Shown: piece by piece, positions 13,164-18,603 of the stretch
Layout: the number at the start of each line of letters is the position of its first letter
Position numbering within the stretch: position 1 is the stretch's first letter
Source: Amylostereum areolatum
Lineage: Eukaryota > Basidiomycota > Agaricomycetes > Russulales > Stereaceae
Reading direction: 5' to 3'
DNA: 64,000 bases
Assembly: GCA_012932865.1 (NCBI GenBank)
Contig: SAXG01000021.1
Coordinates: 310,001-374,000, forward strand
Notes under the pieces: generated by a model
Seen by the model: the letters and a program-made list of their open reading frames with translations, nothing else
What the model was told of the DNA's origin: nothing
Database searches by the model: none
Position numbers and translations under genes: made by a program

Positions 13164-13188
13164 CCCAGTCAAAAGTCGGTCGATAGGA

Positions 13189-13318
13189 TCCGATACAACT
13201 ACGATACAAAATGATACGAAGGGATACGAAAAGATACGATCGAGAAAATAGCCGAAAGGGACGGATACAGACGGATACGGCGGATACGAACGGGATACGA
13301 TACGATACAGACGATACG
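13189..13318. repeat. GATAC(GA) subterminal repeats, left
   Basis: About a dozen GATAC units, many extended to GATACGA, lie within 130 bp. They are spaced irregularly by 0-10 bases, as in transposase-binding subterminal arrays. Confidence 0.8.
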
Positions 13319-14380: not shown

Positions 14381-14529
14381 TCGGATACAAAAGGATAGGA
14401 TAGTTAACGTATCAGATTGTATCGGACGGAAGCTCGATACGAATAGATAGGATCCACTAGAACGGCAACTTTCCTGATACGATCCGGACTCGGCGCTTAA
14501 CGTCGTTCGTATCGGTTCGTATCGTTATG
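14381..14529. repeat. GATAC/GTATC subterminal repeats, right side of outer element
   Basis: GATAC and GTATC units recur, ending TTCGTATCGGTTCGTATCG. Read on the minus strand and continued past the inner transposon at 18554, they mirror the left end of the outer element. Confidence 0.7.
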
Positions 14530-14531
14530 TA

Positions 14532-14600
14532 CAGCCGTTTGCATAACCGACTGGAATCCGCGCGTCGAGAAACTTGTTTGTCAGAGCCAAACATTGCCTT
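14532..14600. repeat. Left terminal inverted repeat of inner transposon
   Basis: This is the reverse complement of 18484-18552 over 69 of 69 bases. Similarity fades after this point. Confidence 0.92.
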
Positions 14601-14680
14601 TTCGGGAAATCACGTCTGCTGCGGGAGTGACAGCTGTGCGTCGCGAGGTCAGCTTTGCAGTGTCTTGAGTCCTGACCGCA

Positions 14681-15772
14681 ATGGCACCTCCCCTTAACCC
14701 TCAACTTCGAGAACGCATTGTCGAATGGCGGGAGCGTTTTACAGTCTCCGAGATCACTGAACTCGCGCAGTGCTCAAAAAGCACAGTCTATGAAATCCTC
14801 CGCCTTTATCGCGAGACAGGTTCAGTGCATAGTCCCCATGGACTGTTGTCCCATGGCCGCTCCCGCATCCTTTCATTTGGAGAGCTCACATCCATCAACT
14901 CCTGGTTGGTCCAAGAGCCAGCAATGTTTCTTGACGAGATTCAAGACCGTCTTGACAAGGAGCTCGGAGTGTACGTTTCACTTGCAACCGTCGCCCGCGC
15001 TGTTCGCAGCCTTGCTCTCACTCACAAGCGGATATCAAAGGAGGCATTGGAACGAAACGATGCCGTTCGCGCAATGTGGGATGCAGCTTGGGGGGATATA
15101 CCCATGGAGAGCATAGTCTGGTTGGATGAATCTGGGGTGGATGATCGGGCACATCAGCGGACAATGGGAAGGGCACCACTGGGATCTGCATGCGTCCGCC
15201 GTGACCTGTTCTTCCATGGCACACGCCTGACAATGCTCCCAGTGCTCTCCTGTGATGGGATCATTGCTTTGGATCTTCTCGAAGGATCAGTCAACCGTGA
15301 GAGGTTCCTCCATTTTCTGCGGGAGGATGTTGTACGCTTCAATTTCTTCTGGATGTCTGTGTCATGCTTATGCCTGTGTTGTGCTCATATAGGCACCCCT
15401 TCTCAACTCATATACTCCAGACAATCCAAGCCGTAATTCTGTGGTAGTCATGGATAATGTTGCCTTTCATCATGGAGACGAAGTGCGGGAGATCATTGAG
15501 AATGACTGTGGTGCGTTGTGCTGTCTGAAAGCTCCGGCTTCAAGGTATACTAACCAGTTTTAATGACAGGTGCAAAGCTTATATACCTACCACCATACTC
15601 CCCCGACATGAATCCCATCGAGCAAGCTTTCAGTAGTATCAAAGCCTTCTTGCGCCGTAATGAAAGCCACTTCACTGGACCTCACATGCGCGCTGAACTC
15701 ATCCATCTTGCTATGGAAGAAATAACGAATGAAGATGCCATTGGCTGGATTACAAACTGCGGGTATTCGTAA
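14681..15772 (+). CDS. Tc1/mariner (IS630-like) DDE transposase
   Basis: This is the transposase expected to bind the inverted repeats and cut and join the element. Exons are 14681-15331, 15393-15510 and 15570-15772, giving 323 residues; introns are 61 and 59 nt and all junctions keep the frame. The N-terminus holds helix-turn-helix DNA-binding segments ([23 protein letters not shown]). The catalytic part shows the first Asp in [10 protein letters not shown], the second in [11 protein letters not shown], and the glutamate in [13 protein letters not shown], about 35 residues after the second Asp. The length matches complete Tc1/IS630-type transposases. The start is 80 bp inside the left inverted repeat. 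No stop or frameshift was found, so the gene looks intact. Confidence 0.92.
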
Positions 15773-15938
15773 AGTAGGTAACGAACGTGGGGTAGATGTA
15801 TGGACAGAGGTGATTATGCGACAGATGAGGGAGTAGTAGGTTAGCGGAAGGTTATGCAGTGTAGTAAAGAGTGGGGGGTCAGGACAGCATGGTGTATGTA
15901 CAGAAAATATTAGGCAACATTATAAAGGTTCGAGAAAC

Positions 15939-17985
15939 TCACTTATCCCCGAAGACATCGTACTCTGAAAAGAGAGACCGTACATAGTCTTTCTTCATGC
16001 GTAAACGCCTAGAGAATTGCTCTGCGGATGCAACGAGAACTCTCAGGCTATCGCTATCACCCCCGGTGAGTGACACCAAGGTGTCAAGGTCTAGCGAGGG
16101 CAAGGTTTCAAGGGTGATCTCCGCCGAAACAAGCATGGAGTGGTACTGCAACAGGTCATGTCCATCACGTTCAAGGATAGTGAGGAAAAAGTAATATAAC
16201 TCATCCTGACGCCGAGGCATAGGAGAGAAAGGCAGGGCAGGAGGCGGTGCTGGAGATAACATGGAAGCGGGGGTCGCCGATGAACCTGCGGCGGAGGGAA
16301 GGGGAGGCGGAGAAATGCCGAGAACAGCAGATATCATAGCACTTTGTTGATTGACGAGGCCAGCGATGACGGGGACAAGAGCGGTGGCGGCATCTGTGGG
16401 TGCAGCGGGTGTGGCGGTAGGTGTCATCACAGAATGTGGGCCTGAACGTCCACGGGCCTTGTGCGGGCGCAGACGACCATCGCGCACGCCATCAAACTCC
16501 TCAGTATTAGGAGGGTACTTGACAGTCGTTTCTTTCGCATCCTATCGAGATAGAGAAGGTCAGTACAGCATTGATCATATTCACAGAGGCTACTCACAAC
16601 AGCGGATGCCCAACGCTTCAATCGCTTCCGATTAAGGCCAATGTGTCCATCTTGGGTTGGATAACAGAAGCCTTGCTCGTTGTGCTCGCCGCGATGCTTG
16701 TCACACTTGTACATTTCCTTCAGCTCGAGAATGATAGTACCCTGACGCTTGATCGAGTCAGAGTACGAGTCCGTGTTTGGAACCTGAGAAATACAATAAG
16801 TTTGGCAGGTTCATTAAATATACGTGCAGGCTTACCTCGGTTCCAGCACACGTTGGTCCGAGTTCCTTGTCGTGCTGGAGCACGGCATCAAACGGCTACA
16901 AGTCCCAATATTAGTCAAAGCAGAAGAACAGGGATGAAACCACATACACGCTTGCGCAGCCGGAAAGCCTCCATGGCGTCAAGGTCAAGTTCGATGTAGA
17001 CATCACGAGGCCGTTTACGGAGTAAGGCCTCCCGAATTGCGAACCAGTCTTCATCTGAATCGACACTTGATGCATCACCCTTGCTGCAGGTAACAGAACG
17101 TTTAGGTATATGTTTGTATAACAATAGACGGAACAACTTACTTGACACCAGTCCAACGAATCTTGAAGGGTACGTTGATGGAGAACTGCCCATCCAACCC
17201 ATGGATACGAAGGCCTTCAGCTACGAGAGACTCACGCGGAGTACTCGGGGTGATAGCGACAGTGGTGACCTTCGTGTCGTGAGTCCTCTTTGAACTCGCA
17301 GAGCTCTTGCCCTTCGCGGAACGTGGCACAGCCGGGGTGTAATAGACAGTGTAATGTGTGGTGTAGCCTGCAGGTAATTGGTCAGTATGCTCATTGTTAA
17401 TGAAGAATGGATCAACGCACGGTCATTCGATGACGACGCAGCAGATCCTGGGGCGGAGGGTAGAAACCCAATGGCATCGCTTGTGTTCCCAGCCAAGGGA
17501 GTGCCGGAGTTAGCCTGGAGGGCGACTGGTGCCGACTGTTGAGGCATAGGTGGAGGCGGCGGCGGCAACTGTGGGCCTGGAGGTGGTGGTGGTGGCAGCG
17601 GCAGGCCTGGGGGCGGCGGAACTGGGGGCAGCGGAACTCGAGGTAGTGAGGCGAGCGTTGGGGCAACTACTCCGGGGTTGGCAGCCTGCCATCGTGCCGT
17701 CAACATATCGAGAACACGACGTTGATCTTGAGGCGACAGGCGCGCGAAGCCGGCTTGTCGCGACTCCTCCATCTCATCTTGGGATGTGTAGAATTGAGGA
17801 GGATTGACCGCTCCATCTAGAGAAAGTCAGCACCGCACACAAACTCTACTGGTACGTAACGTACCAATCCCTCCCGGGTTCACAAGCCAGTGGATCGACA
17901 CAGGTCGGGGAGCCTGCGGGTGTCGATAAGGAACGAATCGCGGTGTCAAAGGACGAGACGGTCCACGAGGGTCTGGAGAGGACAT
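15939..17985 (-). CDS. Transposon accessory protein, polyproline and Cys/His cluster
   Basis: The seven-exon model is 17985-17865, 17816-17421, 17367-17142, 17083-16948, 16895-16836, 16783-16598 and 16541-15939. It totals 1,728 nt (575 residues) with every junction in frame. The N-terminus starts MSSPDPRGPSRP. Residues about 80-145 are proline-rich, with runs of six or seven Pro. An acidic and basic middle follows (SSVDSDEDWFAIREALLRKRPRD split over one exon). Exon 6 encodes CDKHRGEHNEQGFCY, a C-x2-H-x3-H-x5-C arrangement that could bind zinc, then a GHIGLN...RLKRWAS stretch. The C-terminal third is Ala/Pro-rich and then helical. I do not recognise a family with a known role. Because it lies within the transposon repeats and is intact, it is probably element-encoded and may help targeting or regulation. 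Confidence 0.78.
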
Positions 17986-18483
17986 GAGGGAGGGAGCGGG
18001 AAAAAGATGGGGATGGAACTCACAAGCTCAAAACCCGAGGCTTTTTATCATCTTCGCCAACTTCACCGCAACTTCGCCGTGCTCCTGTCATCCACCAGAA
18101 TCCCACCCTCGTTGTTGCCCTTCAATCATGCGCAGTTTTGGTTTCTAGAGAGATCCAAATTAAGTGTAAGCATCCAAGACCACGAGGGGGACGTCTCCGA
18201 GGCTCCCGACTCCTCACTCACCGAGTATCCAAGCAACAAGGGTGGTTTGTGCTCGTTGTTGAGGTTTTTCAGGGTATTGAAGGCTTCTAGGCCAGCTATG
18301 AGGAGTTTTCATGACTCCCGAAGCCCGACACGGAGAGTGTTGATCACTCTGGAGAGGTCATTTGGGTGGAAAGTAGATGGAACATGTCGTCAATGGTCAT
18401 CGCAAAGATCAGGAAGCCCGCTCCTGAACAGCACGAAGTCACAAATGAGTCACTGCGTGACGAATGTGATAAGCACTCCCAAT

Positions 18484-18552
18484 AAGGCAATGTTTGGCTC
18501 TGACAAACAAGTTTCTCGACGCGCGGATTCCAGTCGGTTATGCAAACGGCTG
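18484..18552. repeat. Right terminal inverted repeat of inner transposon
   Basis: This is the perfect inverted copy of 14532-14600. Confidence 0.92.
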
Positions 18553-18563
18553 TATCATGTTTG

Positions 18564-18603
18564 GTATCGGATCCTATCGACGGACTTTTGACTGGGTCTG
18601 AAC
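18564..18603. repeat. Right terminus and target duplication of outer element
   Basis: 18564-18595 is the inverted copy of 13164-13196, with one mismatch and one base fewer. 18596-18603 is the second copy of GTCTGAAC. Confidence 0.75.

Follow-up and report, generated by a model that had tools for sequence, protein, structure and literature searches.

A Tc1/mariner element of Amylostereum areolatum is stably partnered by a convergent second gene

In textbooks, Tc1/mariner transposases stand for enzymes that work unaided, and they are widely used to deliver genes; their elements typically carry a single gene within ~1.3-2.4 kb. Two-gene designs are familiar from other cut-and-paste transposons, namely PIF/Harbinger with its Myb-like protein, CACTA with TnpA and TnpD, and Mutator with MURA and MURB. 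Within Tc1/mariner, the ciliate telomere-bearing elements (TBE) encode a 42-kD transposase, a reverse-oriented 22-kD protein and a 57-kD zinc-finger/kinase protein, all of them under purifying selection (PMC4724952). Here, we describe element A, a fungal Tc1/mariner element that spans positions 14532-18552 (4021 bp) of a window from Amylostereum areolatum and that holds, next to its transposase gene, a convergent second gene which is a stable partner of the element lineage rather than a passenger. The window is the whole stretch of 64,000 nucleotides that was analysed (C97:310001-374000, i.e. contig SAXG01000021.1 of assembly GCA_012932865.1), and all genomic searches were made in this one genome of 57.1 Mb and 182 contigs.

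Element A is flanked on each side by TA, and its terminal inverted repeats (TIRs) pair over 69 bp with no mismatch (71 bp when the flanking TA is included). An earlier note on this DNA had described perfect 69-bp repeats around an intact three-exon transposase and a convergent seven-exon gene for 575 amino acids, and its coordinates and reading frames were confirmed. In window coordinates, the element is laid out as follows:

14530..14531 (unstranded), left TA target-site duplication; TA/TA in 31/32 aligned copies and in copy L033, the left flank of copy L040 being AC
14532..14600 (+), left TIR, 69 bp, starting with CAG; perfect complement of 18484-18552
14681..15331 (+), transposase exon 1, with paired-type helix-turn-helix (HTH) and first catalytic residue D149; from the gene model and Pfam
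15393..15510 (+), transposase exon 2, with second catalytic residue D238; gene model, intron positions conserved
15570..15772 (+), transposase exon 3, with catalytic E274 and the stop at its end; gene model, Pfam DDE_3 over the spliced protein
15939..16541 (-), second gene exon 7, with the RGRxGP stretch and a predicted C-terminal helical (SAM- or HhH-like) domain; gene model, comparison, fold model
16598..16783 (-), second gene exon 6, with the CxxH...C...H...WA cluster; gene model, comparison
16836..16895 (-), second gene exon 5; gene model
16948..17083 (-), second gene exon 4; gene model
17142..17367 (-), second gene exon 3, conserved central domain; gene model, comparison
17421..17816 (-), second gene exon 2, proline-rich linker; gene model
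17865..17985 (-), second gene exon 1, start codon at 17985; gene model
18484..18552 (-), right TIR, 69 bp; perfect complement of the left repeat
18553..18554 (unstranded), right TA target-site duplication; TA in 32/32 aligned copies

The transposase comprises 323 amino acids, encoded in three exons and open throughout. Once spliced, it matches Pfam DDE_3 (E 8e-26; 91 bits vs a cut-off of 28.6), its catalytic core aligns with Sleeping Beauty (E 0.0016), and its N-terminus aligns with Pax paired domains and matches Pfam PAX (25.6 bits vs a cut-off of 22), pointing to a paired-type HTH. The catalytic triad consists of D149, D238 and E274, with 35 residues separating the latter two; the range for Tc1/mariner is D-D-(34-39)-E/D. 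Element A thus combines the DDE type and spacing, TA duplication, TIRs and N-terminal paired-like HTH of Tc1/mariner elements, and deviates from them in a trait that is usual, if not strictly defining, namely the single gene: all 33 copies found hold the second one. It does not belong to pogo/Fot, as its third catalytic residue is E and a Pfam scan found no match to a CENPB-type HTH. The second gene lies on the minus strand, convergent with the transposase gene, and its seven exons encode 575 amino acids plus stop in a predicted frame that is open throughout, with GT-AG at every intron.

Whether the two genes always travel together had been raised by the earlier note as well. DNA searches with either gene led to the same 33 near-identical loci; all were read, each carries both genes, and none without the second gene was found. 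The 23-base tip of the TIR, allowing up to 3 mismatches (≤3), occurs 65 times (reversed control pattern: 0), which equals 33 x 2 minus the right end of L033, whose TIR holds extra bases. By this tally, no deletion derivative, solo end or miniature inverted-repeat transposable element (MITE) was found at ≤3 tip mismatches, a limit that more diverged ones would escape. In an end-to-end alignment of 32 copies, window copy included and L033 set aside, 17 (the window copy counted) are identical to the window copy, and the others differ by 18 substitutions, none of which is shared between copies, and by 11 indel columns. Both frames are unbroken in 30/33 copies, several of them with missense changes, and L033 encodes both proteins unchanged; the broken frames are those of L010 and L041 (indels in transposase exons) and L013, whose second gene is interrupted by a stop. 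Two of the copies, L035 and L036, lie in opposite orientation only 55 bp apart (G000:C99:485412-493508).

TA is present on both flanks of 32/33 copies (31/32 aligned ones plus L033). When joined, the flanks of the window copy match six sites with a single TA (on C161, C139, C95, C111, C99 and C167) at 96-100% identity over 99-110 bases spanning the junction. These sites are paralogous, related empty sites and not alleles, and insertion at TA is precise. With 33 genomic copies and precise TA insertion opposite near-identical related empty sites, element A is no chance arrangement. An inverted 68-bp copy of the joined flank sequence is found at window 13164-13230 (87% identity). Since the joined flanks match dispersed sites, the insertion point of element A lies within a terminal repeat that belongs to a different dispersed element. 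This host repeat has inverted ends, seen at window 13164-13230 and at 14506-14531 joined to 18555-18597; its inverted pairs span ~1.2 to 4.7 kb genome-wide, and it may represent a non-autonomous transposon family with variable interiors.

The arrangement extends beyond near-identical copies. A convergent transposase and second gene were found in at least six further families, with transposase identity falling to about one third:

Family B (C107, C132, C13 and a split copy on C99): pair in 4/5 loci, the fifth being a truncated relic
Family C (C100:532k): pair present; N-terminus of the second protein not recovered
Family D (C100:377k): pair present; N-terminus of the second protein not recovered
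Family E (C105, L050): degenerate second-gene relic, one weak hidden Markov model (HMM) match (independent E-value, iE, 3.4e-4)
Family F (C138:158k): pair present
Family G (C143): pair present
Family H (C164, C98, C102, C113, C117:380k and C34): pair in 6/6 loci
Transposase relics with no visible second gene: L042 (C158), L049 (C8) and L054 (C117:32k), truncated or broken in the stretch read

Altogether, the second gene accompanies 48 of the 52 transposase loci counted for the lineage (47 without E), where the C99 copy of B and 4/6 H copies were scored from search matches and not from read sequence. The remaining four are the truncated relics L042, L049 and L054, all read, and C32:29k, unread; L049 bears a B-type TIR, as judged by eye. 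The count leaves out L056 (C139), L057 (C148) and C1:2264551 (below the DDE_3 cut-off). L056 and L057 were rejected as lineage members, their DDE_3 match being short and restricted to the C-terminal part; they look like another transposase type, set amid repetitive frames (G000:C139:1206500-1210500 and C148:149700-153700), and no second-gene match better than chance was found at either. Inverted repeats of ~70-90 bp with TA at both ends delimit two B copies (L044, L045), F and G, and those of A, B and G start with CAG. For C, D, H and the B copy on C13, the stretches read contained no long TIR pair that could be detected, nor could one be assigned to E. At L043 (C138:165627), a relic of the second gene is bordered on one side by an A-like TIR, and the stretch read shows no transposase. 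Half relics of a subfamily that is ~74-83% DNA-identical over matching pieces occur at L043 (1997-4279) and L042 (3030-3795), one consisting of TIR and second gene and the other of TIR and part of the transposase. Beside the L043 relic lies an 81% inverted-repeat pair (4392-4473/6717-6802, 2.2 kb apart) that probably belongs to another element.

Compared with the second protein of A, identity amounts to 57% for A', a relic subfamily of A, and to 35% each for B and C. Used as query, the second protein of D found the A' relic (E 2.3e-10) and C (E 0.007); this search and a spliced model are D's separate support, the HMM match to D being circular because D is part of the profile alignment. Manual splicing of the F, G and H second genes gave models with no internal stops, the start of the H gene being uncertain (36-base first intron). 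Aligned by hhalign to the A-D profile (A' included), H reached E 1.1e-5 over 329 columns (probability 82%) and G E 6.9e-5 over 39 columns (probability 63%). In 0/200 shuffles each were the observed F, G and H scores attained, by a small margin for F (27.1 vs 24.1), and the profile HMM alone gave iE 0.03-0.19 for these three. For the intron comparison, relatives were modelled by splice-aware alignment guided by the window proteins. In B (L044), six of six second-gene introns match those of A in residue and phase, with differing lengths, as do the last four in C and the first four in A'; for the transposase, B, C, D and E (L044, L047, L048, L050) agree with A in the residue and phase of both introns. 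This agreement of positions and phases across families despite differing lengths supports the predicted splicing. Among seven families, the more alike two transposases are, the more alike the C-terminal halves of their second proteins tend to be: the pairwise identities correlate with r 0.86, a value reached by 20/5040 relabellings, although A, B and C carry much of this correlation and the identities between distant second proteins (17-29%) are close to noise. With B or C, A shares 59-60% identity in the transposase and 36-38% in the C-terminal half of the second protein.

What the second protein might do can be approached through the parts it has kept. A cluster of ~30 residues is common to the seven readable families and consists of C, C or H, C, H, followed by WA (WG in D). 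It offers four candidate Cys/His ligands in A, B, C, D, F and G and three in H, with no matching solved structure. While the Cys/His...WA/WG pattern is present in all seven families and arose in 0/2000 shuffles each for A, B, C, F, G and H, it was composed after viewing the sequences and permits K at the second place, and the shuffles exclude D. An RGRxGP stretch is common to the second proteins of A, A', B, C and D, and that of G contains KRGRGRPRK, which we take to resemble an AT-hook. The Pfam scan matched no family to the second protein of element A, and the best match among the second proteins scanned had E 0.11, in a single member. Folded from one sequence, the C-terminal piece encoded by exon 7 was modelled as four helices with a predicted local distance difference test score (pLDDT) of 78.9 (other four models: 36-56). 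Its fold matches, all weak, were to topoisomerase V, NusA, Rad51/RadA and SAM structures (best E 0.31); yeast SAM 1ow5 came third (E 0.44), after topoisomerase V and NusA, the model having four helices vs the five of SAM. The SAM profile itself was unmatched in every second protein scanned against Pfam. Mushroom genomes may commonly encode unnamed proteins that resemble it in the WA motif and in a SAM-like end, in which case the lineage would be widespread.

A host origin was considered in searches that used the A, C, D, F and H second proteins as queries; two of these searches scored 103/113 and 105/112 candidates, and one listed matches down to ~E 1e-5. Among the matches listed below E 0.2, all fall within these elements or one TIR-bearing relic, and no free-standing relative was found; within this genome, the second gene thus does not have the look of a conserved host gene, a finding that the earlier note had named as a refutation. 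Unlinked matches were not significant (C161:385546, E 0.28; C109:336269, E 0.32; C103:109776, E 1.8). A search of viral contigs with one peptide pattern found no relative. The comparison of nonsynonymous with synonymous rates (dN/dS) had likewise been proposed earlier. From A to A', replacement is limited relative to saturated silent divergence, with nonsynonymous and synonymous proportions of pN 0.28 and a saturated pS 0.774 for the second gene (449 codons) and dN 0.218 and dS 2.7 for the transposase (209 codons); yet between families the ratio is only bounded, as silent sites are saturated, and the burst of near-identical A copies displays no purifying selection. Within family B, dN/dS is 0.31-0.62, from few changes.

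Taken together, the pairing, conservation and layout of the two genes are direct observations, and we consider it somewhat more probable than its opposite that element A is a recently active two-component Tc1/mariner transposon whose second protein serves, most likely, as an accessory transposition factor. As the pair recurs in distantly related families, the second protein probably helps the element move or escape control; pairing across diverged families likewise supports the earlier proposal that an accessory gene was kept because it aids the element, the aid itself being a probable reading of this pattern. From its sequence, we infer that the second protein may bind DNA, oligomerise and take part in transposition. 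By family, the transposase would recognise the inverted repeats through its paired-type HTH and then cut and paste at TA, where precise insertion is backed by the flanks and the related empty sites and the enzymatic steps are taken from the family. The Cys/His module, probably zinc-binding, and the basic RGRxGP stretch could contact element DNA or chromatin, the C-terminal helical domain may oligomerise, and the second protein might thus assist the transposition complex in assembly, nuclear delivery or targeting. More broadly, the chances seem evenly balanced that fungi host an old and so far undescribed two-component branch of Tc1/mariner, with a fast-evolving Cys/His and helical partner that has been co-inherited over extensive divergence and that the natural host makes necessary for mobility or silencing escape. 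Several points weigh against an accessory factor. The transposase already has a DNA-binding region of its own, which leaves no evident need for a partner; neither Pfam nor PDB gave a sequence match in favour of a DNA-binding or zinc fold (best PDB profile E 7.4); the second of the four Cys/His positions is absent from family H; and the helical domain is a single-sequence model whose best fold match is as weak as stated above. F aligns to the A-D profile with just E 0.01 over 52 columns (hhalign probability 4%), and its proposed homology leans mainly on common position, orientation and motif. Lastly, changes within the burst comprise 3 silent, 4 missense and 1 nonsense in the second gene, which shows no purifying selection, next to 1 silent and 5 missense in the transposase and 4 in noncoding sequence. 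A recent burst of elements whose proteins work in trans would be expected to lack selection in this way, which is not evidence for need.

Other roles for the second protein have to be weighed against that of a transposition factor. A possible but rather unlikely one is that it counters silencing or manipulates the host, shielding the element from DNA methylation, RNA silencing or heterochromatin and not acting in cut-and-paste itself. The burst is very recent and nearly unmutated, with over half of the aligned copies (17/32) identical and all 18 substitutions private, and divergence is faster in the second protein than in the transposase, which would fit a regulatory factor or one engaged in an arms race; however, Pfam scans found no known silencing-related domain, and the conserved Cys/His and RGRxGP residues are compatible with many roles. 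It is improbable, to our mind, that the protein regulates transposase level or activity as an inhibitor or activator instead of being a structural cofactor, even though convergent transcription and the predicted helical domain would suit this and nothing specific speaks against it. While the sequence is compatible with all three roles, we prefer a cofactor since the second gene goes with this particular lineage of transposases. Host genes are captured by other transposons, and the second gene might then be cargo, passive or beneficial to the host, but we regard this as quite improbable: the gene keeps its position and orientation in families whose transposases share about one third of their residues, no free-standing relative is among the matches listed, and no copy lacking it was found. 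Finally, the gene could be an annotation illusion in which chance frames are joined by invented introns, given that its model was built by eye and the models of relatives stem from guided alignment. The retained position and phase of six introns in B despite different lengths, the 35% identity that its protein shares with those of B and C, and limited replacement beside saturated silent divergence make this hardly credible.

If a second protein is indeed what a whole lineage has kept through deep divergence, the minimal Tc1/mariner design would not always be enough, and second proteins for which there is no Pfam model would gain a family identity. Many near-identical copies, precise related empty sites and two short genes make for a directly testable system. 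As to its novelty, the earlier note knew of no described Tc1/mariner system with this partner. Extra genes are known in the ciliate TBE (PMC4724952); for fungi, a literature search, mostly of openly accessible papers, found no two-gene Tc1/mariner.

Among described systems, Sleeping Beauty and its relatives share with element A the DDE transposase, the paired-type HTH, the TA duplication and TA-precise insertion, but element A is larger at 4.0 kb, has transposase introns and carries a second gene in every copy found. Fungal Fot/pogo elements belong to the same IS630-Tc1-mariner group and are common in fungi; element A differs by being DDE and not DDD and by having no CENPB-type match, and its second gene is no transposase by Pfam. 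PIF/Harbinger, CACTA and Mutator resemble it in pairing a transposase with a second, often DNA-binding protein encoded by the element, yet their transposases are of other superfamilies and their second proteins are different ones. The TBE of the ciliate Oxytricha are Tc1/mariner elements with extra conserved genes, one of them reversed and another encoding a zinc finger (PMC4724952). Element A is nonetheless not a TBE: TBE have three genes and a telomeric TIR, whereas element A has two genes, and the Pfam scan found no kinase or other domain in the second.

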